64,000 bases of DNA from Spirochaetota bacterium (GTDB lineage Bacteria > Spirochaetota > UBA4802 > JAFGJZ01), in the NCBI GenBank assembly GCA_029554345.1, contig JAKPJF010000113.1, positions 62,001-126,000 of the forward strand. The letters are read 5' to 3'. Below the pieces are notes generated by a model. The model was not told the DNA's origin and did not search any database. It saw only the letters and a list, made by a program, of their open reading frames with translations. Positions 49,628 to 64,000 of this stretch are shown here, piece by piece (the stretch's first letter is position 1; each line of letters starts with the position of its first letter). Position numbers and translations under genes: made by a program.

Positions 49628-49919
49628 AAAAGATTCATTCACTCGCGCGATTGAATTCAGAATGGAAAGCGCAAAGTGGGAAAAGAACATGATCCAATTA
49701 ATAGTTTCTAGTCCTTTATTCCGTGACGTAAATCAGCAGAATGCATCACTGCAGAATTATTATTTTAAGGCAGCCGCTTTTCTTCTGGCTGTTGCCGTTT
49801 CGGTGATGCTTTTCAGCAAAGTGCTTGGTGAAAAAGATGAAACCTATGCAGCCTATCTTATAAGTGAAGAAACTTCGGCTAATAATTTTTCTTACGATTT
49901 TTCAGGCGGTGATTTCTGA
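49611..49919 (+). CDS. Putative CnrY-like membrane anti-sigma factor
   Basis: The start is ATG 49611, with GGAGG seven bases upstream. The 102-residue protein has about 48 cytoplasmic residues (MNSRVKKDSFTRAIEFRMES and following), one transmembrane helix (residues 49-66) and a short periplasmic tail. This is the layout of CnrY-type anti-sigma factors, in which a short cytosolic peptide holds the sigma factor. The identification rests on size, topology and position between an ECF sigma gene and the exporter, not on sequence similarity. Confidence 0.6.
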   Translation: MNSRVKKDSFTRAIEFRMESAKWEKNMIQLIVSSPLFRDVNQQNASLQNYYFKAAAFLLAVAVSVMLFSKVLGEKDETYAAYLISEETSANNFSYDFSGGDF

Positions 49920-50704
49920 TGAGTATGAAGAAGAAAGTTGTTATTGTAGTATCGCTGATTGTTGCCGTTCTGCTTGCTGTTTTTTATTTGAAGAAGAATG
50001 GTCAGTTTGTTCCGGTAAAAACCGGCAAGGTAGTCGATGCTGTTTATGCTCTCGGAACTGTTAAGCCGCTTATTTATTATAATTTGAGGATGGGAAATAA
50101 CAGTGCCATCTCACGCATATATGTTGTTGAAGGTTCGTCGGTCAATAAGGGAGATCCGTTGCTTTCTACAAGCGACATGATCACAATGCGATCTCCGATA
50201 AGCGGAACAGTCACATCTGTTAATTTTAAGGAAAATGAGCTGGTTTCCACCAATGCTAATGTGCTTTCTGTGATTGATATGAAAAAACTTTACGTGCAGA
50301 TATCTCTTGATCAGGAATCAGTATTAAGAATAAAAAAGAATCAGACAGCTGAGGTTTCTTTTGAAATGCTGCGCGATAAAAAAGTTAACGGAAGAGTGTC
50401 TGCGGTGTTTCCTTCTGACGGGGAATTTCTTGTGAATATAGCTCTTGATTCTGTTCCTGAAGAAATCCTTCCGGAGATGACCTGCGATGTTGCTGTAAAA
50501 ATTGCCGTGAGAGATAATGCCATGATGATACCGTCATCTGCCGTGACCAATGAAGGAGTTGTTGTTCTTCGCGGCGGGAAAAAAATTCCATTAAAACCGA
50601 AAACGCAAATGATAGACGCGGAATGGGTTGAAGTAACCGACGGCAGTATTCTTCCGAATGATAAAGTTTTAAACGTATCCAAGTCTGTTAAGAAGAGGAA
50701 ATAA
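49919..50704 (+). CDS. MacA-type periplasmic adaptor (HlyD/MFP family)
   Basis: This 261-residue membrane-fusion protein has an N-terminal helix (VVIVVSLIVAVLLAVFYL), a lipoyl-like domain (RIYVVEGSSVNKGDPL, RSPISGTVTSVNFKENELV) and a beta-barrel domain (LYVQISLDQESVLRIKKNQTAEVSF). The long alpha-hairpin of MacA is very short or missing. It connects the inner-membrane ABC transporter to outer parts. It follows the anti-sigma gene with a one-base overlap. Confidence 0.9.
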   Translation: MSMKKKVVIVVSLIVAVLLAVFYLKKNGQFVPVKTGKVVDAVYALGTVKPLIYYNLRMGNNSAISRIYVVEGSSVNKGDPLLSTSDMITMRSPISGTVTSVNFKENELVSTNANVLSVIDMKKLYVQISLDQESVLRIKKNQTAEVSFEMLRDKKVNGRVSAVFPSDGEFLVNIALDSVPEEILPEMTCDVAVKIAVRDNAMMIPSSAVTNEGVVVLRGGKKIPLKPKTQMIDAEWVEVTDGSILPNDKVLNVSKSVKKRK

Positions 50705-50710
50705 GAAAGT

Positions 50711-51943
50711 ATGTGGTTTCTTGCTCTAAAACATATTTTCACGCGGAGGAGTCAGACTCTTTTGACTTTTACGGCAATTGTAATGGGTTCCGGGGGGTTC
50801 ATTGTTTTTTCGGCAATGCAGCTCGGATTCAAAGAATACATGATTTCCAATCTTATAGAAAGAGACGGACATATCAGAATTTCTCCCAGAAACGAAACGA
50901 TTTCTGAAGAAAACGTCAAAGGACTGTTTTATGAAGGATCAAATGTGAAATGGCTTAATACTCCGACGGGACGCAGGTCAAATGCTAATCTGACAAGCGC
51001 TGTGAAATGGTTTGCGAAACTTGATTCGATGGCTGAAGTTAAGAATTATGCTCCCATTGCTTCTGAGACATTCATTGTTACAAAAGGCAATTTTTCGAAA
51101 TCTGTTTCATTAACAGGAATATATCCGGAAAAGCACAGGAATGCAACGAATCTTTTTGAATATGTTGTGGAAGGGGATCTTAATGAGGTGACAAACGGTC
51201 TTTCTCTTGTATTTGCCGGCAAACGCTTCCTTGAAGACTTCGGACTCAAGAAGGATGATACTGTTATAGTTGCGTCTCCTGACGGTTCGATATTTCCGAT
51301 GAGAATAATCGGCACATTCGACACTGGAGATTTCCGAACAGACGGGCAGACGCTATATACATCAATTTCAACAGTTCAGAAAATGATCGGCAAGCCGGGT
51401 TATATCAATAAAATTATAGTGAAGATTGAAGATGTTTCCAAAGCTGCTGAAACTGCAACAAGGTGGCAGAGCGGCTCTGTCGATGATGTGGAAAGCTGGG
51501 ATCAGGCGAATGAAAATTTCCTGTCAATGACAAAGACTCAGGATACGGTTCGCGACGTTACTACGATAACCTTTATAGTAGTAGTTGCATTCGGTATTTA
51601 TAATATTCTTAATATGGTTGTAAATCATAAGCAGAAGGAAATTGCAATACTGCGTTCAATCGGTTATACTGAAAATGACACGGTATTTCTTTTTCTGATT
51701 CAGGGTGCTCTTATCGGTATCGCTGGAGTAGCTGCAGGTGAAGCAATTGCATTTTTCTTCTGTAAATATCTTGAAACTCTCAAAATTCCGATGGGAAGAG
51801 GTCACATGAGAATTTCCTGGGATATTATGATTTATGTTAAGAGCTTTGTTCTGGTATTCGGTTCGGCTCTTGTGGCGAGTTATTTTCCTGCGCGTTCAGC
51901 CGGAAAACTTTCGCCGATTGAAATTATTAAGGGCACAAGTTGA
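50711..51943 (+). CDS. ABC exporter permease (MacB/FtsX/LolC-like)
   Basis: The 410-residue protein has an N-terminal helix, a large periplasmic MacB-PCD domain (about 45-275; FRTDGQTLYTSISTVQKMIG), and three C-terminal helices with the FtsX signature TFIVVVAFGIYNILNMVVNHKQKEIAILRSIGYTENDTVFLFLIQG. The ATPase is a separate gene, as in LolCDE. It overlaps the ATPase start by one base. Together they should export a lipid-like, peptide or toxic substrate. Confidence 0.92.
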   Translation: MWFLALKHIFTRRSQTLLTFTAIVMGSGGFIVFSAMQLGFKEYMISNLIERDGHIRISPRNETISEENVKGLFYEGSNVKWLNTPTGRRSNANLTSAVKWFAKLDSMAEVKNYAPIASETFIVTKGNFSKSVSLTGIYPEKHRNATNLFEYVVEGDLNEVTNGLSLVFAGKRFLEDFGLKKDDTVIVASPDGSIFPMRIIGTFDTGDFRTDGQTLYTSISTVQKMIGKPGYINKIIVKIEDVSKAAETATRWQSGSVDDVESWDQANENFLSMTKTQDTVRDVTTITFIVVVAFGIYNILNMVVNHKQKEIAILRSIGYTENDTVFLFLIQGALIGIAGVAAGEAIAFFFCKYLETLKIPMGRGHMRISWDIMIYVKSFVLVFGSALVASYFPARSAGKLSPIEIIKGTS

Positions 51944-52638
51944 TGAAAATAATTGAATGTAAAGATATGGTGAAAAGCTTCGGGCATCCGCCGGTGACGA
52001 TACTCAAGAGCTTAAACTTTACTGTAGATGAAGGCGAATTTCTTTCTGTGACAGGACGTTCCGGTTCTGGGAAATCGACTCTGCTTTATACAGTAAGCGG
52101 TCTTGATCCTCTCACGTCAGGCAGTGTTTTTGTTCTTGGTGAAGAGGTGCACCGTATGCCGAGCAGAGAAACACATGAATTTAGAAATCAAAAGATAGGA
52201 TTTGTTTTTCAGTTTCATTATCTTTTGCCGGAGCTTACCGCATTTGAAAATATCCTGATGCCCGCACGTAAAATAAAAATGGAAAAGCAAAAGGCTTCAT
52301 ATGCTGTTGAACTGATGCATGAATTTGAAATTGAAAAATGCAAGGATAAGATTCCTGCACAGATGTCGGGCGGAGAGCTCCAGCGTACTTCGATAGCCCG
52401 TTCGCTTATTATGGAACCGCGTATTCTTTTTGCTGATGAACCGACCGGAAATCTTGATTCTGAAAACGGTGAAAGAGTTATGCATATTTTTGAAAAGATT
52501 AACAAAAACCTTTCAACCACGATAATTATGGTAACTCATGAACCTGATTTTGCCAAGCGTGCCCGGCGAACAATACATCTCACGGATGGCGTCATAGAAT
52601 CTGATGTATTCAATTCTGTGCCAAAACGCAAAAAATGA
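51943..52638 (+). CDS. ABC exporter ATPase (MacB/LolD-like)
   Basis: The start is ATG 51943, overlapping the permease stop (TGATG). The 231-residue protein has Walker A GRSGSGKST, signature MSGGELQRTSIARSL, Walker B ILFADEPTGNLD and H-loop VTHEPDFAKRA. All catalytic residues are present. It is the last gene of the efflux operon; a terminator follows 30 bases later. Confidence 0.95.
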   Translation: MKIIECKDMVKSFGHPPVTILKSLNFTVDEGEFLSVTGRSGSGKSTLLYTVSGLDPLTSGSVFVLGEEVHRMPSRETHEFRNQKIGFVFQFHYLLPELTAFENILMPARKIKMEKQKASYAVELMHEFEIEKCKDKIPAQMSGGELQRTSIARSLIMEPRILFADEPTGNLDSENGERVMHIFEKINKNLSTTIIMVTHEPDFAKRARRTIHLTDGVIESDVFNSVPKRKK

Positions 52639-54458: not shown

Positions 54459-57242
54459 ATGGAAAAAGATGTAGCGGATAGGTCCGTTAATAAATGGCAG
54501 AAACCGTCGCGTAAAAAGCGTATATTTAAAATCTTGATCATTGCCCCGTTTTCAATTGCGGCTTTTATATTTGTTGTATTGACTATAGCCGTGCTCTTTT
54601 TGTCTGATAAACGGGTTGAGCGTTTAGCCGAAAAATATTACCCGGAATATATGAATGGGCGGCTTGAACTCGATGTCAAACATTTCAATCTTATTTCCGG
54701 CTTTGATATAAAGGATATTGTTATTTATAATCCGGAACCTTTCAAAGGAGAAATGATCCGTATTGACAGGTTAGTTTTTGATTATTCGCTCTTTCAGATT
54801 CTTACAGGAAATATCCGCTTTAACGAAATAGGAATATACTCCCCTAAAATAAATCTCATCCAGGAAAAAGGTGTTTGGAATTTCGAAAAACTTGCTAAAG
54901 CGTCAGAAAAAAAAGAAGAACCGGTTGAAGAAAAATCAGGAGAGCCTTCTAAAGAAATTAATCTTCCGATAAGTATTGAATTTTTTCTTAGATTTATTCT
55001 CAAAGATTTATCCATTGATGTTGATGCTGATGAATTTAAAACATCACTTAGTGATTTCAGTTTTACGACGGATATTTATGTTCCCCCGGTAAAAAAAATT
55101 CCGCTTGGAATTTCTGCTGTTAAACTTGTTGAAACCTTATCCGTAAATATTAATCCTGCAGAAAAACTGAATCTGAGTTTCTCGTCAAAAGAGGCAGAGG
55201 TAAAACCGCCTCTGATTTTATTTCTTGAACTTAATCTAGTTAACAAAGACGGGGAGAAAGCTTTTGAATCTCGTTTTAAAGCAGGAACTTATAATTCTCC
55301 TGTGCGCTTTCAGCGTTCTCATCTCGGACCTTTGGATTTTCTGATAAGCTATGATGTATTCCTTGATCCGATAAATGATTTTCTGCGACTCAATTCCTTT
55401 GATGTCAAGTTCAAAGATGATAAGTGGATTTCTCTAGGCGGAACAGTTTCGAGCATGTCAAAGAATCAGAATATCGATATCCGTATGAAAGAAAGCAGAA
55501 TTGATCTATCAAAACTTTACCCCTACTACGTAACTTTAACAAAGGACAGTTCAATTAAATTCGGCGGCAGACTCTCATTGTTTCCGCTTTATGTTGCCGG
55601 TAATGCTTCAAATGTAAGATTAAACGGTAATTTTAGATTCAACGATTTTCTTTTTCGTCAAACTGCACTGGAGCTTAAAGCGGATTCTCTGGACATTGCC
55701 TATGATGTCCGCAAAAAGGGAAGTGAGGCTGATATTTCATTAGAAGTAAATCTTTTTCCGTTTTTTTTCCGTCTTGATAAAAGTTGGTCATCCAGAAATT
55801 CTTTTCAGCTTGCGGCGGACATCAGCACCTATTCTGATTTTTCCCGTTTCATAATTAACAATTTTTCTGCGAAATATTCATCTTCACCCAAATCTGCAAA
55901 TGCTCTATTCCTTTCAGCTAAAGGAAAAGCCTCTATTGCTTCCGGGACAGAAGCTGATATTGAAATTCAACCGCTTGAACTTAATGTACCTGAGCTTGCA
56001 GCTCTTCTTCCTATGTCGATTTCTGAATCTTTAAATTCTGTTCCGCTGAAAAAAAGTGTGAAAGCAGATCTCACCATATCATTTTCTCAGAAAGATAAAA
56101 TATCAGCTGCACTTAAGTCTCTTTTTGTAATTCCTGATTATGAAGTAAAAGATCTTGCCCTTGATGTATCACTGACTCAAGACGCCAGAAAGAATCGTAT
56201 TGACCTTCACCGGTTTTCGATTGGAAGCCGTGAGTTCGGTGTACTTCTTAAAGCAGACGGGATGTTGGAGCAGAAAAATTCACCTTTATCTGATTCGGAT
56301 ATTAAGATTTCACTTACTGCTGAAAGCGGAAAGAAAAAAGTTAAAAAGGACAATATGTCTCTATGGGGTTCCCTTTATCTTAATGCGAGGATGAAAGGAG
56401 GGCTTGAAAATGGAAAGGCTTCCGGTGAGATCAAAATAAAGAATTTCAATTTTGAGGATTCTTTAAGTCAGCTTTCCGTAAATTCTCTAAACCTTGATTT
56501 TCCTTTCGATTATGATCTCAAATCCAAATATGACGGTACTTCAAGAATTGCTGTTGATAAGAGCAGGCTCCTTGATAACACCGGCTTTAAAGAAAAAGAT
56601 AATTTCAAAATCGGCTCCTTAAAAATAAAGCATCCTTCCCGCCCCGAACAGTTTGAATTGATTAAGGATTTATCTGCCTCCATGCGTTTTAAAGAAAATG
56701 TGTTCAGCATTACTTCTTTGAAGGCTTTTCTTATGAATGGCATAATTTCATCTGATGAAATTATGTTTTATCTTGCTGACATGCAGACAAAAAATATGGA
56801 ATATCGTGTTTCGCTGAATGCAAACAATATTGATATTTCACAGCTGGATAGAATCTCTTCATCTCGAAATACAAAAGCAGAAATTTCTCTTAATGCTGAT
56901 ATTTCAGGACGTGGTGTTGATTTCTCGGGAGATCTTCCTGAGATAAACGGTTTTATGAACATTTATAAGATTCAGGATAAATTTGCAAACAGACTGATGA
57001 AAGGTCTCTCTGAAGAGAAGGGTGAATCAAAACTTGGAGTTACGCAGAAAGTTGTTGATCATCTTAATCTTCCTTCAGGTTTCTATTTTAATATCGACAG
57101 CGGCAATGTTTATGCAACCGTTACATTAAAGCGAAAAGCTCTAGGTTATTTCACTTTTCATATTGAAGACGACAAAATTCAATATGACAGAATTCCGATA
57201 AAAGAATATCTCGGAAAAATCAGAAAGGATGAGGTTAATTAA
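54459..57242 (+). CDS. AsmA/YdbH-type protein
   Basis: This 927-residue protein has one N-terminal transmembrane helix (about 23-50) and then a very long beta-rich periplasmic body with the AsmA start LELDVKHFNLISGFDIKDIVIYNP and IRFNEIGIYSPKINLIQEKG, typical of the AsmA/TamB/YdbH family of proteins that bridge the two membranes for phospholipid transport. The C-terminus (YFTFHIEDDKIQYDRIPIKEYLG) resembles the YdbH end. It is followed without gap by a YnbE/YdbL-like lipoprotein gene, the partner set of E. coli YdbH. Confidence 0.8.
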   Translation: MEKDVADRSVNKWQKPSRKKRIFKILIIAPFSIAAFIFVVLTIAVLFLSDKRVERLAEKYYPEYMNGRLELDVKHFNLISGFDIKDIVIYNPEPFKGEMIRIDRLVFDYSLFQILTGNIRFNEIGIYSPKINLIQEKGVWNFEKLAKASEKKEEPVEEKSGEPSKEINLPISIEFFLRFILKDLSIDVDADEFKTSLSDFSFTTDIYVPPVKKIPLGISAVKLVETLSVNINPAEKLNLSFSSKEAEVKPPLILFLELNLVNKDGEKAFESRFKAGTYNSPVRFQRSHLGPLDFLISYDVFLDPINDFLRLNSFDVKFKDDKWISLGGTVSSMSKNQNIDIRMKESRIDLSKLYPYYVTLTKDSSIKFGGRLSLFPLYVAGNASNVRLNGNFRFNDFLFRQTALELKADSLDIAYDVRKKGSEADISLEVNLFPFFFRLDKSWSSRNSFQLAADISTYSDFSRFIINNFSAKYSSSPKSANALFLSAKGKASIASGTEADIEIQPLELNVPELAALLPMSISESLNSVPLKKSVKADLTISFSQKDKISAALKSLFVIPDYEVKDLALDVSLTQDARKNRIDLHRFSIGSREFGVLLKADGMLEQKNSPLSDSDIKISLTAESGKKKVKKDNMSLWGSLYLNARMKGGLENGKASGEIKIKNFNFEDSLSQLSVNSLNLDFPFDYDLKSKYDGTSRIAVDKSRLLDNTGFKEKDNFKIGSLKIKHPSRPEQFELIKDLSASMRFKENVFSITSLKAFLMNGIISSDEIMFYLADMQTKNMEYRVSLNANNIDISQLDRISSSRNTKAEISLNADISGRGVDFSGDLPEINGFMNIYKIQDKFANRLMKGLSEEKGESKLGVTQKVVDHLNLPSGFYFNIDSGNVYATVTLKRKALGYFTFHIEDDKIQYDRIPIKEYLGKIRKDEVN

Positions 57243-57779
57243 ATGAAATATTTATTTATAACGATTATGTTTGCATGTTCGTGCGTGATTATTCCTCCGA
57301 AGATTGAGCTTACCGGAGAAAAAACAATGATAGAGCGTCAGATAGCCGGAGATTATCGTGAACTTGAAGATGATGCTTGGGTAGTTTCGAGTGCGCGTAC
57401 GAATGTTCAGAAGGAAAAAAGCGGAACCGCTGTTTCTTTTTCTGATGAAGAGATTTTGTCGGCGCAGAATATCCGGAGCATGAATGAAGAAAGAATAAGA
57501 AGATACAAGGATGAATCGGCAATAGGTGAAGGCCGTGATGGGAATCTGAAGTATAGAACAATAAGTGTTTACGAGAAAGATTCACGGAAGAAGACGGAAC
57601 TTCTTTCAATTATTGAAACAGAGAATAATGCCAGAAAAAAAATAATTCTGTATTATGCAGCTAAATCAAAAAAAAGTGAAAATGAAGAGCGCATTAGTTT
57701 TGCGGCTGAACAGAGAGATAAAGCTAGAAAAGGTGATGTGATTGAAACTGCTGACGGGAAATGGGTAACAAAAAAATGA
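57243..57779 (+). CDS. YnbE/YdbL-like lipoprotein (DUF1318-type)
   Basis: This 178-residue protein begins with a lipoprotein-like signal (LFITIMFACSC), then PPKIELTGEKTMIERQI, similar to the start of YnbE lipoproteins. The C-terminal part (ENNARKKIIL ... QRDKARKGDVIETADGKWVTKK) resembles the DUF1318/YdbL ending. It may thus combine the roles of YnbE and YdbL, the partners of YdbH. The assignment is by motif memory, not by search. It lies between the AsmA gene and the giant gene, overlapping the latter by four bases. Confidence 0.65.
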   Translation: MKYLFITIMFACSCVIIPPKIELTGEKTMIERQIAGDYRELEDDAWVVSSARTNVQKEKSGTAVSFSDEEILSAQNIRSMNEERIRRYKDESAIGEGRDGNLKYRTISVYEKDSRKKTELLSIIETENNARKKIILYYAAKSKKSENEERISFAAEQRDKARKGDVIETADGKWVTKK

Positions 57780-60700
57780 AAAATGTTTTTTATTTTCTGA
57801 TTGCTTTCGTAATTGCCGTGCAGAGTCTCTATTCGGCTGAAAAAAAAGAAGTAGCTCTCAAATATAATCTGATGCTTAAGGATGCCTTTGACGAAAAAGG
57901 TTCCGGACGTGTTATTCCTCTTGCTTTTGAAAAATCAGTTGAGACAGACGGAAGCCTTTCTGCGGATGGAAATTTTCTTGTTTATTCGTCCGATAAAGAG
58001 AACGGAAATTATGATATTTATCTCCGTTCGATGACTGGTATTTCTACCGTCCGGTTGACCACACATGCTTCAAAAGATTTTTCATGCAGTCTTTCTCCTG
58101 ATTCGCGATCTATAGTTTTTGTGTCTGATCGTGAAGATCCGGCTGGCGATATATTTTATGCTTCGCTGGATCTTAATTCAGTCATGAATTCCTCTTCGAC
58201 AGGGATTCTTGATAGAAATATAATTAATCTGACATCAATGGCAGATCAAAACAAAATTCTCCGAATGATTAAGGATTCAGATCCGGTATGGTCTCCTGAC
58301 TCAAAAACAATCGCTTTTTCCTCAGCCCGTGACGGTGAAGAAAATATTTATTTAATGAATCCCCGTGACGGTTCTATTAAGAAAATGACTGATAAGGGAG
58401 GAATTTATCCTTCTTTTTCATCCGATGGCAAAAAATTAACATTTGTTTCTTACCGCGAAAATCGTATGGGTGATATATATATACTTGATTTAACAACAGG
58501 GAAAGAAGTCCCGCTTGTAAAAGGAAATGATATCAAGCTGTATCCTGTATTTGCTTCAAACAACAAGGATATTATTTATACCTCAATATCTTCTGATACA
58601 AACGGCGATAAACAAATTAATTTAAAAGATAAATCAGATATATATTATAGAGATGTTTTATTAGATAAATCTTTTCGAATGACTTATTCTAAGGGATCTT
58701 CTTTTAAAGCTAGATTTTTCCCTTCATATACTCTTAAATATTTCAGCAGCGAAGAAAAAGTGTTTAACGGAGTTATTGTTTATTCGGAACAGAATGGATC
58801 AAATATTAATATCAATATGCTTCCGGAATTCGGTGAAATACCAAGAAGGAGAAATGCAAAGGATCAGTATGATCTTGCCTTGACATATTCAGACGATACT
58901 GACGGTGAATTTTACTTTGATTATCTGATGAGAGTATACTTTTTTCATTTTAATTCTACTGGCGAAAAGAATAAACCTTTTATAATTAGATCTCTCGCTG
59001 CTGCAATGCGTTATGCCGCTGAAGAAAAACTACCTCATTCGTCTGATGCGGAAGTCATTATGAAAAAAATATCACAGAATGACAAGTATGCAGAACTTCT
59101 TCTTATTTTGCTTTCAGGAAAACCTGACACTGCAGTTCAAAGAGTTTCAGAGGCAGGAGAAAGTTCTTCGATGCTTTTGGAAGATATAGCTGATTATTAT
59201 TCTTCGATGGATCCTCGTAAGGCTATGTATTATTATAAAAAAATAATCAGCGATGAGCCTAAGTATCAGACAATATCTGCTGTTTATTATAAGTATTCTC
59301 TCAGTTTACGTAAAGCTGAACCAGTTATCACCGATATTCCTTCTGAACTAGAGTACGTATTTATTGAGGGGTCTTCCTCGCTACAGGAAAAAGCATCTGA
59401 ACTTTTAACTTCTTTTTATACTGCGGATTATGAGAAAAGTGCAGCTAATCTGACACGATTAATTGAATCTTATAAAAATGCGATTGAGTCAAAAAAATAT
59501 GACGGCAGAAAATTGAATGGGGCAAAAATTCTTTTGTCGTCTTTATATTATGCGCGGGGTTTTGTTTATTATAGTCAAAAAAAAGAAAAAGAATCAGCCG
59601 ATGATCTGAAAATGGCTATGGAAGGTATTCGAAAGACTTTTTCCTTATATTATAAGTGCAATATTCTACTTTCTCGTATAAATTCCGCTAATCCTGAAAA
59701 TGAAGAAAAATATATTCATTCCGCATTGTCTAATTATCTGCCTCGTTGGAAAATTCAGGATGTTAACGATACTGCGGAGAAGCTTCTTTCTTATTATGAG
59801 AAGATAGGTTTTGATTATGAGAATCATGGAAAATATAATTCTGCAGCGGATATTTATTTTAAATCAATTTCATTAATTTCTTATTTGTATCAGCGCGGAA
59901 AATTTAATGATCTTTACGACAAATATGCTCCAAGAGCGCATGTTCTTTATATTGATGCAAAAAGTGCGGATAAGACATCATCAAAATCAGCTTTGAGTGA
60001 TCTTGAAAAAGATTATCTGAAGAATCTTAACATTGCAAGAATGGACTTTGATAAAGCATACATATATGCGCTTGCTTACGTATACAGCAAAAAAGCGCTT
60101 GGGGATTCATCCGACAGTGTTAAATCCAATCCGGAGATATTTGCAGAAAATTTTAAAAAGGCTATTGAGCAGACGGATTGGGCTCTTTTTATGGATGATA
60201 CGTTTTCAGATGCGTATCTTTTGAAGGGATGGATTTTTCAATACATAGATCTTCTTCGGGCAGATGAATCTGATGGAAATTTTAATGCAGTAAAAACAGC
60301 GGATAAATATTTCGATAAATATCTTTTTGAAAAAGCAAGAGCTCTCTATCTAAAAGCTATCAGTGTTAACAACGAAAAGATTAATCCCGATAAAGAAGGC
60401 AATCTTTATCTTAATTTGGGCAATGTGAATTTTCTGTTGATGAACTACTCGGAAGCACTTTCTTCATATAAATCTGCTCAGATTTATAAAAAAAATTACG
60501 GTTCGAAGATTGAAGAAGCGGTATTTCTGTTTCATTTGAGTTATTGCTACTGGCAGAATGGGGATTTCGTCAAAGCTAAAGACGAAATGAACAAAGTATA
60601 TTCTATTTATAGAAGTCTTATTACATCAAGAAATAGAAAAGATTATGCTTTTCAGTTATACCATATCTATAAGTATTTTGCCTTGTTTGAGCGGATGGAT

Positions 60701-63700
60701 GGAAATTATTCAGAAGCAGAAAAATGGTATTTGCGAATGGCAGATCACTCTCGTAAATACGGAATAAAAAGTGATGAGGTCCGGTTGTATCAGGAAATAG
60801 CATACTGCCGTGAGTCACTAGGAGATTATGACGGTGCGATTTCATACCTGAAAAAAACCGAAGACATTATTTCGGACGATGAAGATTCTGAGAAAAAATA
60901 TTATCTGAAACTTAAGGCATTTTATATATTCGGGCCGTTTCCTGTTTGGAATCTCGGCGGGGATACTGCAGTAATTGGTTCAGCGAGAATATCAGGTGAA
61001 TTAAATAAAAAACAAAAAAGCCTTCTCAATTTATCTATGATTGAAAATATTAATTATAAATCAGGTGATTTGGAAAAAGCTGCTGAATATTTAAAGAAGA
61101 AAATAGAAGTAGCCGAGAAAGAGAAATCAGTTTTTTATAACAATGTTGTATTTTCATCATATAACAATCTGGGTGAAATATATTTTAAACTTAAAAAATA
61201 TTCTGATTCTGAAAAGTATTTCAGCCTCGCATGGAGTGAAGGCGAGAAAAAAGAAAATTCTGAAGTGGTTTTTTCTGCCGTCAAAAATCTGACTGAACTA
61301 TATTGTTTTCTCGCTGAAAAGAACATGAAAAAGCCGGAGGAAATAGACTCGCTTTTAGTAAAAATATTAGAATACCGATCACTCTATGAATCGAATCGTT
61401 TTGCTTCAGAATATGAAACTCTTGAAAAAAATGCCGAACGTGACAACCGAAAGATAAGCAAGCAGGAAGTTGAAGTTCTTAAAACTAAAATTGCACAGGA
61501 AGCCAAAACTGTTTATTTGGAAATCGATATTTCCTCTGCTTTGTTGAACATGGCAAAACAAGAGATGCTTTTATCACGCGGAGAAGCTGTTGATAGAAGC
61601 ATTTATCAGAAAGCTTCAGCTCTTATGGAAACCCGTCTATTGGATCAGAATGTATCAAAATCATTACGGGCTCGATTGCTTATAAATCTTTCTATTTGTT
61701 ATGACCGGATAGATCTTCCGGTAAAGGCATATTCTACTCTTGGAAGTGCTCAGGCAGTTATCGAATCAGAACTCCTTTATAAACTTATTCCTTCTTTTCA
61801 TTTATCTCTATCTTCGTTTTTGAAGCGAAGACATGATTCTGTTCATCTTCCTGCGTCTTCTTATCTTGATGCATCAAAATCCGGGATAATGCTTATCGAA
61901 AAATTTCCACAGCTTTTTGCTTCATATTCGGAAAAAGTGGAAGATCTATACCGGAATTATGCCTGCGATCTTGCTGATGCAGGTTTGATTAATGATTCAT
62001 TTGGCGTTCTTGAAAGACTTGCTTCTTTCAAAAAAACTGCTAGAGTTTTCAATTATTCTCCTGAATTTTCTGATGATAAATATAATTCAAAACTTAATTA
62101 TATCAAAAACTGTTATGTCGATTATAATAAATGTGTTTCTCGTATAGGTCTTGATCCGGTAGTGAACAAGGAGCTTCTAAAAAAAGCTTCAGAAATATCC
62201 GAAAAAGCAGGTAGAACAGCGCAGTCTGACCCGGATATATCTCAATATTTTGCTGTTGAAAAGTATTCTGCTAAAAAAATAAAAAAACCTTTTTACATTT
62301 ATATGAAAGATAATGGAAAAATGCGGTCTTGGCGGATAGAGGATGGAAAAATATCAACAGCTGTTTCGGATGAGTCTAATTTTACAATAGATATTTCAGA
62401 TTCATATGTTATGATAAATGACGAATCGCTTTCTTTGAATTTACCTGAAGCTGTTTATGTTTCTTCATTTTCTGATATACTCCGATTGCCGGATTATAAT
62501 GATTATAATTCGATTAATCCATCAAGAAAGAAATCTCTTTTGTTGGAAGACGGCAATTTACTGAAAATCAGCCGTAATCTTTTTTCAGAAAAATATTTTC
62601 CTGTTAAAATAAAAGTTAAATCAGATTCTTTAACATCCGATGAGATTTTGCTTCTTGCTGATTCTATGATATATGCCGGAGTATCAGAATCTGTTGTTTC
62701 TTCAAATAGATTATCATATCTTATTGGAAAAAATAGGGAAAAGATATCCACAGGCAGTATTTTCTCAAGTGAATTATTTGAAAAAACAATTGATTCAGGT
62801 GACTTGCGTAGCGCAAAAAAGATAGCTAATTCATTTATAAAAAGTTTTGAAGCGAAAGATTATTATATAAAGTATTTAAATTCTAGAATTATGGAATATG
62901 ATGGATACTATAAGAAGGCGCTTGATGAATTTCCTTTTAATGAAATTTCAGAATACGGAAGAGACGGACGTATCGTATCTTTTGGATTATTCCTTCTTCT
63001 TAAAAACGGTGATATTAAAAGGGCATCTGATTACTTGAAGCTCAATGCTGAACTTCTTCAGCAAAAGGGTGATTATGCAGTATATAGCGGAATAATTTCC
63101 GATTCTTTAAATATTCCTTCTGCAAAGGATTATTTTGTAAATGAAGCTAAGCTTTATTCTCTTTTGAATTCATTTTTGATAATGAACAACCGTAAAACCC
63201 TTCCTATTAAATCAATTACTGCTCTTGGCTATAAGGACCAAGCAATTAATACAGCTTCAGTTGATGGACAAAAAGAGCGTATCGATAAATACGGTGAAGC
63301 TGTATGGTATTTTGTAAAATTGAAGAATGAACTGGGATCGGGGACCAAATCTGATTTGTCTGCATTGCTCGGAAAAATTAAAACTGCAAAATTTATATCT
63401 GATGAGAGTATAGATGTCAATGTCTGCTGTTTCACTGCCGGTAATGCTGCAGAATTGATCGGAGAATACGGTATTGCTGCGGATATTTACTCTAAAATTC
63501 GTTTGCCATTTATTGCGGAAAAAGAAAGAGCTCTTGTGAAAAGAGCTGCTCTTCTGACATATCTCGGAAAATATAATGAATCTGAAAGCATAATAAAGTC
63601 ATTTCCGGAGATGAAGCCTGAAATTAAAATTATTTCTGCTGAAAATGCGGTTTTTGCAGGATTGAATAATTCTGATGCCGTAATTGAAGAAGCAAGGATT

Positions 63701-64000
63701 TCTGCCGATACGGATTCGGCCCGATATAATATTCAGCTCTTGAAAGCGCATTCTATCCGTAAAAAAATATTGAGTAGAGACAAGAATGTTTCTTTAAAAG
63801 ACTATGAGAATGAATTTCTTTCTGCTCTTTCAATCGCGCAAAACAATCTTCCGATGATTCGCAGAGTCCGTCAGGATCTTTTTGTCAAAGGAATAGATTT
63901 TATCATAATGCTTAATTTCAGCGAGAAAAAATATGCTGAAGCCTTAAAATATGCAGAAATTAAGCAGCAATTAATGCTTTCTGCATTTGTGTCGCCTTCA
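57776..64000 (+). CDS. Giant exported protein: TolB-like propeller, TPR-like helices, degenerate CHAT-like segment (5' part)
   Basis: The frame starts at ATG 57776 (four-base overlap with the lipoprotein gene) and stays open to the last base, about 2075 residues. A signal peptide (VFYFLIAFVIAVQSLYSA) comes first. About five TolB/PD40 blades follow (residues 40-300), for example DPVWSPDSKTIAFSSARDGEENIYLMN. From about 350 the chain is helical with TPR-like pairs such as NLYLNLGNVNFLLMNYSEALSSYKSA and NNLGEIYFKLKKYSDSEKYFSLAW. Residues 1505-1655 (KPFYIYMKDNGKMRSWRIEDG; SDEILLLADSMIYAGVSESVVSS) recall a CHAT domain without the catalytic His and Cys. More TPR-like sequence follows. The function is unknown; the propeller suggests binding of a lipoprotein partner at the outer membrane. 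Confidence 0.85.
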   Translation, partial: MKNVFYFLIAFVIAVQSLYSAEKKEVALKYNLMLKDAFDEKGSGRVIPLAFEKSVETDGSLSADGNFLVYSSDKENGNYDIYLRSMTGISTVRLTTHASKDFSCSLSPDSRSIVFVSDREDPAGDIFYASLDLNSVMNSSSTGILDRNIINLTSMADQNKILRMIKDSDPVWSPDSKTIAFSSARDGEENIYLMNPRDGSIKKMTDKGGIYPSFSSDGKKLTFVSYRENRMGDIYILDLTTGKEVPLVKGNDIKLYPVFASNNKDIIYTSISSDTNGDKQINLKDKSDIYYRDVLLDKSFRMTYSKGSSFKARFFPSYTLKYFSSEEKVFNGVIVYSEQNGSNININMLPEFGEIPRRRNAKDQYDLALTYSDDTDGEFYFDYLMRVYFFHFNSTGEKNKPFIIRSLAAAMRYAAEEKLPHSSDAEVIMKKISQNDKYAELLLILLSGKPDTAVQRVSEAGESSSMLLEDIADYYSSMDPRKAMYYYKKIISDEPKYQTISAVYYKYSLSLRKAEPVITDIPSELEYVFIEGSSSLQEKASELLTSFYTADYEKSAANLTRLIESYKNAIESKKYDGRKLNGAKILLSSLYYARGFVYYSQKKEKESADDLKMAMEGIRKTFSLYYKCNILLSRINSANPENEEKYIHSALSNYLPRWKIQDVNDTAEKLLSYYEKIGFDYENHGKYNSAADIYFKSISLISYLYQRGKFNDLYDKYAPRAHVLYIDAKSADKTSSKSALSDLEKDYLKNLNIARMDFDKAYIYALAYVYSKKALGDSSDSVKSNPEIFAENFKKAIEQTDWALFMDDTFSDAYLLKGWIFQYIDLLRADESDGNFNAVKTADKYFDKYLFEKARALYLKAISVNNEKINPDKEGNLYLNLGNVNFLLMNYSEALSSYKSAQIYKKNYGSKIEEAVFLFHLSYCYWQNGDFVKAKDEMNKVYSIYRSLITSRNRKDYAFQLYHIYKYFALFERMDGNYSEAEKWYLRMADHSRKYGIKSDEVRLYQEIAYCRESLGDYDGAISYLKKTEDIISDDEDSEKKYYLKLKAFYIFGPFPVWNLGGDTAVIGSARISGELNKKQKSLLNLSMIENINYKSGDLEKAAEYLKKKIEVAEKEKSVFYNNVVFSSYNNLGEIYFKLKKYSDSEKYFSLAWSEGEKKENSEVVFSAVKNLTELYCFLAEKNMKKPEEIDSLLVKILEYRSLYESNRFASEYETLEKNAERDNRKISKQEVEVLKTKIAQEAKTVYLEIDISSALLNMAKQEMLLSRGEAVDRSIYQKASALMETRLLDQNVSKSLRARLLINLSICYDRIDLPVKAYSTLGSAQAVIESELLYKLIPSFHLSLSSFLKRRHDSVHLPASSYLDASKSGIMLIEKFPQLFASYSEKVEDLYRNYACDLADAGLINDSFGVLERLASFKKTARVFNYSPEFSDDKYNSKLNYIKNCYVDYNKCVSRIGLDPVVNKELLKKASEISEKAGRTAQSDPDISQYFAVEKYSAKKIKKPFYIYMKDNGKMRSWRIEDGKISTAVSDESNFTIDISDSYVMINDESLSLNLPEAVYVSSFSDILRLPDYNDYNSINPSRKKSLLLEDGNLLKISRNLFSEKYFPVKIKVKSDSLTSDEILLLADSMIYAGVSESVVSSNRLSYLIGKNREKISTGSIFSSELFEKTIDSGDLRSAKKIANSFIKSFEAKDYYIKYLNSRIMEYDGYYKKALDEFPFNEISEYGRDGRIVSFGLFLLLKNGDIKRASDYLKLNAELLQQKGDYAVYSGIISDSLNIPSAKDYFVNEAKLYSLLNSFLIMNNRKTLPIKSITALGYKDQAINTASVDGQKERIDKYGEAVWYFVKLKNELGSGTKSDLSALLGKIKTAKFISDESIDVNVCCFTAGNAAELIGEYGIAADIYSKIRLPFIAEKERALVKRAALLTYLGKYNESESIIKSFPEMKPEIKIISAENAVFAGLNNSDAVIEEARISADTDSARYNIQLLKAHSIRKKILSRDKNVSLKDYENEFLSALSIAQNNLPMIRRVRQDLFVKGIDFIIMLNFSEKKYAEALKYAEIKQQLMLSAFVSPS

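Follow-up and report, generated by a model that had tools for sequence, protein, structure and literature searches.

A giant exported propeller-TPR protein with two CHAT-like domains is coupled to a DUF1318 lipoprotein and an AsmA-superfamily protein in Spirochaetota

In Spirochaetota, a giant protein predicted to be exported is encoded and inherited together with a DUF1318 (YdbL-like) lipoprotein and an AsmA-superfamily protein, and this coupling is well supported. The giant is a previously undescribed periplasmic protein in which a beta-propeller is combined with a long arm of helical repeats and two protease-like domains that are dead; a search of the literature found no paper describing such a protein. 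Since it is co-inherited with the lipoprotein and the AsmA protein almost without exception, the giant probably has a structural or regulatory place in the machinery for lipid transport to the outer membrane. We propose, at a probability of roughly 0.6, that it is a dedicated scaffold or regulator subunit of an AsmA/DUF1318 lipid bridge, docked on the DUF1318 lipoprotein.

The window, that is, the whole stretch of 64,000 nt that was analysed, comes from a Spirochaetota bacterium (contig JAKPJF010000113.1, forward strand, 62,001 to 126,000). The named close relatives are all Spirochaetes MAGs. The features discussed below are as follows.

54459..57242, + strand: AsmA-superfamily protein, 927 aa (Pfam AsmA, E 2.1e-12)
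57243..57779, + strand: DUF1318 (YdbL-like) lipoprotein, 178 aa (Pfam DUF1318, E 5.2e-11)
57776..64000, + strand: giant propeller-TPR-CHAT protein, open frame, window part (residue 2395 lies outside the window)
57776..57838, + strand: predicted signal peptide of the giant, type I like, without a lipobox Cys, read from the sequence
57893..58855, + strand: TolB-like beta-propeller, residues about 45-365 (PD40 and TolB matches)
58913..62260, + strand: first TPR array, residues about 385-1500, approximate borders (TPR_12, TPR_2, TPR_1, TPR_8)
62279..62773, + strand: CHAT-A, degenerate CHAT-like domain lacking the catalytic dyad, residues 1507-1671 (fold of the L054 homologue, model residues 103-331)
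62828..64000, + strand: second TPR array, residues about 1690-2110 (helices of the model), followed outside the window by CHAT-B
Outside the window, + strand: CHAT-B, residues 2135-2395 (sequence and fold)
L002:7945-10156: response-regulator/SpoIIE-PP2C and FecR-domain genes, overlapping or following the giant gene

The first-pass annotation had described a frame of more than 2070 residues without a stop, and 2080 codons are indeed open in the window (57761, or 57776, to 64000). The contig runs past the window, which allowed the rest of the gene to be recovered: it ends at L002:7948, and the complete gene (L002:761-7948) encodes 2395 aa from the in-frame ATG at 57761, a possible start, or 2390 aa from the preferred ATG at 57776. 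The latter shares the sequence ATGA with the stop codon of the lipoprotein gene (57777-57779), which is the four-base overlap reported earlier. The lipoprotein gene in turn directly abuts the AsmA gene with zero gap. Upstream of this operon, at 49919-52638, genes that were read from the sequence as a membrane-fusion protein, an FtsX-type permease and a LolD-like ATPase stand in a row and may encode an envelope ABC exporter of the lipoprotein release or MacB type.

Profile searches with DUF1318, AsmA and the giant were carried out over 247 Spirochaetota genomes. Both DUF1318 and the giant were found in 102 genomes, DUF1318 only in 2, the giant only in 4, and neither in 139. The finding set beforehand as one that would speak against the coupling was a giant standing without its partners in most relatives; instead, 102 of the 108 genomes that have either gene have both, and the two are lost jointly. 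The co-occurrence gives a Fisher p of 9e-62, a value that is descriptive only and overstates independence because the genomes share kinship. Within the order of the window genome, 36 genomes have both genes, none has a single one, and 10 have neither; in the same ten genomes the AsmA gene is absent or represented by weak paralogues only. These ten belong to about five genera and may reflect as few as four losses. As to the exceptions, G175 had first been counted as DUF1318-only and its giant was found on re-search, whereas G120 gave a weak match to the giant profile (5.9e-17) and a search with a distant giant as query did not find a giant there. All four genomes with the giant only are fragmented assemblies, of 54-91% completeness.

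Gene order is as regular as gene content. In the 59 genomes in which the two genes are linked, the giant always lies immediately downstream of DUF1318, and their stop and start overlap in 20/20 loci measured. Wherever an order-level relative had sufficient flanking DNA, the order was AsmA, DUF1318, giant. In a further 43 genomes both genes are present without linkage, either distant or on separate contigs, a few through contig breaks only. In five genomes of family f11 (G072, G116, G132, G193 and G221) the system is duplicated, with two copies each of the DUF1318 gene and the giant, of which one pair is unlinked. An apparent giant variant of 11,060 aa (G041:C81, L080:11180-21142) was rejected: the assembly has only a stretch of N there, translated as X.

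The lipoprotein had been called YnbE/YdbL-like, and the two halves of this name fared differently. Its family has a lipobox, a conserved PPxIxLTGEKTxIERQIxGxY segment and a C-terminal DUF1318 domain in the alignment; Pfam DUF1318 matched 25/25 homologues, and hhalign aligned the family with E. coli YdbL at 94.5% (E 7e-8). The YnbE identity, on the other hand, was not upheld: Pfam gave no YnbE match up to E 10, and hhalign aligned the signal peptide only. The AsmA protein matches the NCBIfam LIC_11026 family of hypothetical AsmA-like proteins (NF047499) with E 8.7e-92 and 308.6 bits, below the cut-off of 325; literature on LIC11026-11030 was found to consist of lists only. Its AlphaFold2 model (pLDDT 81) has a transmembrane helix at residues 20-47 and about 45 strands forming a long beta-groove, so that Pfam match, helix and modelled groove are those of an AsmA-superfamily bridge protein with an inner-membrane anchor. 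The sole PDB match of the model below E 0.001 was the eukaryotic LPD-3 bridge-like lipid-transfer complex (E 2e-4, low TM-score), and the model thus makes the protein a candidate for bridge-like lipid transfer.

In E. coli, YdbH-YnbE-YdbL is described as a lipid bridge between the two membranes (PMC8593681; Kumar et al. 2024 via PMC11784454). Like that system, the spirochaete operon combines an AsmA-superfamily inner-membrane protein, a lipoprotein and DUF1318 (YdbL). Unlike in E. coli, the lipobox and DUF1318 are here within one polypeptide, an extra propeller-TPR-CHAT subunit of 2400 aa is present that has no counterpart at the E. coli locus, and YdbH and YnbE have no detectable sequence match. 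Because YdbL aligns and YnbE and YdbH do not, we speak of likeness to the YdbH system, short of strict membership; by analogy, and with one defining gene (DUF1318/YdbL) common to both, the spirochaete system may work like it. Hhalign of the AsmA family (A4) with E. coli YdbH gave 0.1%, in a single-sequence comparison between members of a shared fold family. This failure, the failed match of the lipoprotein family to YnbE and the low TM-score of the AsmA fold match count against a bridge role.

The TolB-like blades and TPR-like repeats that had been read from the letters were borne out by Pfam (PD40, E 4.5e-24; TPR_12, E 8.9e-20). Solved TolB chains were the best PDB sequence matches of the giant family profile (E 1.5e-22) and TolB the nearest NCBIfam family, at 98.7 bits and hence far from the full-length equivalog cut-off of 343.15. 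Like TolB, the giant has a PD40 propeller in an exported protein; it has 2000 further residues. Four natural short forms were observed, three of 1784-1794 aa that end after CHAT-A (L058, L061, L081) and one of 1452 aa that ends before it (L071). Since these forms lack CHAT-B or both CHAT domains, such domains are dispensable in some lineages, and the propeller and first TPR array form the core of the giant. Two Geodermatophilus loci (L083, L084) were set aside as short PD40 propeller proteins.

A catalytically empty CHAT-like segment had been proposed near residues 1505-1655, with a failure of the match by structure named as the result that would speak against it. An AlphaFold2 model was obtained for residues 1450-2628 of the homologue L054 rather than of the window protein (mean pLDDT 85.6). 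It contains not one but two alpha/beta domains with the same strand and helix order, separated by TPR-like helices, which map onto the window giant (P0001) at 1507-1671 and 2135-2388. The predicted fold is therefore present; a Pfam or profile match for the first domain is not. Compared as a profile (segment 1455-1760) with the LCP-89 CHAT domain and with CHAT-B, CHAT-A scored 0.05-0.1% only, and as there is no sequence-profile match, it is recognised by its predicted fold only. CHAT-B is recognised by both sequence and fold: hhalign aligned residues 2080-2395 with the LCP-89 CHAT domain over its whole length (98.6%), and the domain lies above the curated Pfam CHAT cut-off in relatives (L054, 2.2e-7; L056, 1.7e-9; L049, 1.9e-11). 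On the window giant itself, Pfam scored neither CHAT-A nor CHAT-B. In giants from LCP-89 the C-terminal domain is a canonical CHAT (Pfam E 3e-66). The His/Cys dyad is kept in the LCP-89 giants L082 and L085; in the alignment, both residues are replaced in the window giant and in every Spirochaetota giant inspected.

A Foldseek search of the C-terminal model against the PDB returned DdvA, separase and Csx29 among TPR proteins, all three being CHAT-fold proteins with helical arms; TM-scores were low, as expected because of the long flexible repeats. The giant resembles these proteins in having a TPR arm and then a CHAT fold, and differs from CHAT proteases and DdvA in being exported, in its N-terminal propeller, in its two CHAT-like domains and in the dyad lost in Spirochaetota. 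The combination of TPR, propeller and CHAT would be equally compatible with a sensor or a conflict protein. Bacterial conflict systems, whose genes are typically scattered, commonly contain TPR-CHAT proteins, and the likeness to Csx29 and separase could mean that the giant is an unrelated envelope or conflict protein that has only its operon and regulation in common with the bridge genes. We regard this as highly improbable, given the near-perfect co-occurrence even where the genes are unlinked, the joint loss, the signal peptide or lipobox on the giants, and a conserved gene content without the scatter of conflict genes.

A sensor would agree with what follows the giant. The next gene, again joined by an ATGA overlap, encodes a response regulator of 400 aa that includes a SpoIIE phosphatase domain (RR/PP2C), and after it comes an exported FecR-domain protein. 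Both genes are kept in many relatives, not all, and are a possible output of the system. The giant might thus sense the state of the outer membrane or of the bridge and signal envelope stress to the RR/PP2C and FecR proteins, with no role in assembly; the best PDB fold match, DdvA, is an anti-sigma factor that spans the membrane and carries a CHAT domain (no paper on its structure was found in the open literature). However, the RR/PP2C and FecR genes are absent beside the giant in L057, L058, L061 and L073, whereas DUF1318 is never absent where linked, and the window giant has no transmembrane segment to pass a signal to the cytoplasm. A purely sensory function is accordingly rather unlikely in our judgement.

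Outside the phylum, L082 (LCP-89, FCB group) and L085 encode DUF1318 and a giant of 2811-2833 aa beside a folD-like gene, with no AsmA gene adjoining the pair. L086 has three consecutive genes, encoding a DUF748-like protein of 1070 aa (by a match of E 0.0077 only), a protein with DUF1318 and a propeller-TPR protein of 1618 aa. The link of the giant to the DUF1318 lipoprotein thus appears closer still than that to AsmA, and the DUF1318-giant pair, which in L082 and L085 stands without an adjacent AsmA gene, seems to be the older unit and the tighter one. Such an arrangement, together with the intact CHAT dyad of LCP-89, would suit a chaperone or pseudo-protease for assembly or quality control of the DUF1318 lipoprotein, with AsmA linked only indirectly. 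We hold this to be decidedly improbable: the AsmA genes follow the same phyletic pattern in Spirochaetota, and the LCP-89 genomes concerned have weak AsmA matches of about 1080-1090 aa elsewhere. A more speculative idea, which we consider quite unlikely, is that the giants form a family of separase-like proteins of the periplasm, each with CHAT domains in tandem, in which the ancestral active CHAT (LCP-89) would cut the DUF1318 lipoprotein or AsmA and so open or dismantle the bridge, and the Spirochaetota pseudo-protease would clamp it.

Export of the giant, also proposed earlier, is predicted from a signal peptide at its N-terminus. A lipobox-like Cys follows the signal sequence in 24/31 giants inspected and is absent in the window species, so the giant is predicted to be a lipoprotein in most relatives. 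Of the 24 lipobox giants, 11 (including L054, L059, L062, L076 and L078) have an acidic +2 residue; none of the DUF1318 lipoproteins does. In E. coli an acidic +2 residue favours inner-membrane retention, and spirochaete sorting rules differ; judging by these residues, the giant and the DUF1318 lipoprotein may possibly sit in opposite membranes.

Returning to the scaffold or regulator reading, we infer for the giant a physical contact with its partners, an outer-membrane location and a part in lipid transport. In the proposed mechanism, the AsmA protein, with its anchor in the inner membrane, would form a beta-groove conduit spanning the periplasm, and the DUF1318 lipoprotein would close or cap it at the outer membrane, as YnbE/YdbL do in E. 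coli for YdbH. The exported and mostly lipid-anchored giant would use its propeller and TPR arm to dock on the lipoprotein, and would hold, position or gate the bridge. Both CHAT domains would be pseudo-proteases retained as binding modules and derived from a CHAT domain still intact in LCP-89 bacteria. Possible precedents for such a role are DdvA, as a TPR-CHAT signalling protein, and PG1058, a propeller-TPR lipoprotein of the outer membrane for which a scaffold role in the type IX secretion system has been proposed (PMC5053529). PG1058 likewise joins TPR and a TolB-like propeller in a periplasm-facing lipoprotein, as the giant does in most relatives; it has the opposite domain order, is much smaller, carries an OmpA-like C-terminus and no CHAT, and belongs to a different machine.

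It is still an open question how AsmA-type bridges are controlled, positioned and ended where they reach the outer membrane, and further factors of the bridge complexes have been stated as unknown (PMC12977461). Being retained or lost jointly with the DUF1318 lipoprotein throughout a phylum, and present with it in a further group, the giant protein offers a concrete candidate for one of these factors, and it makes the question testable in bacteria with outer membranes different from the E. coli one.
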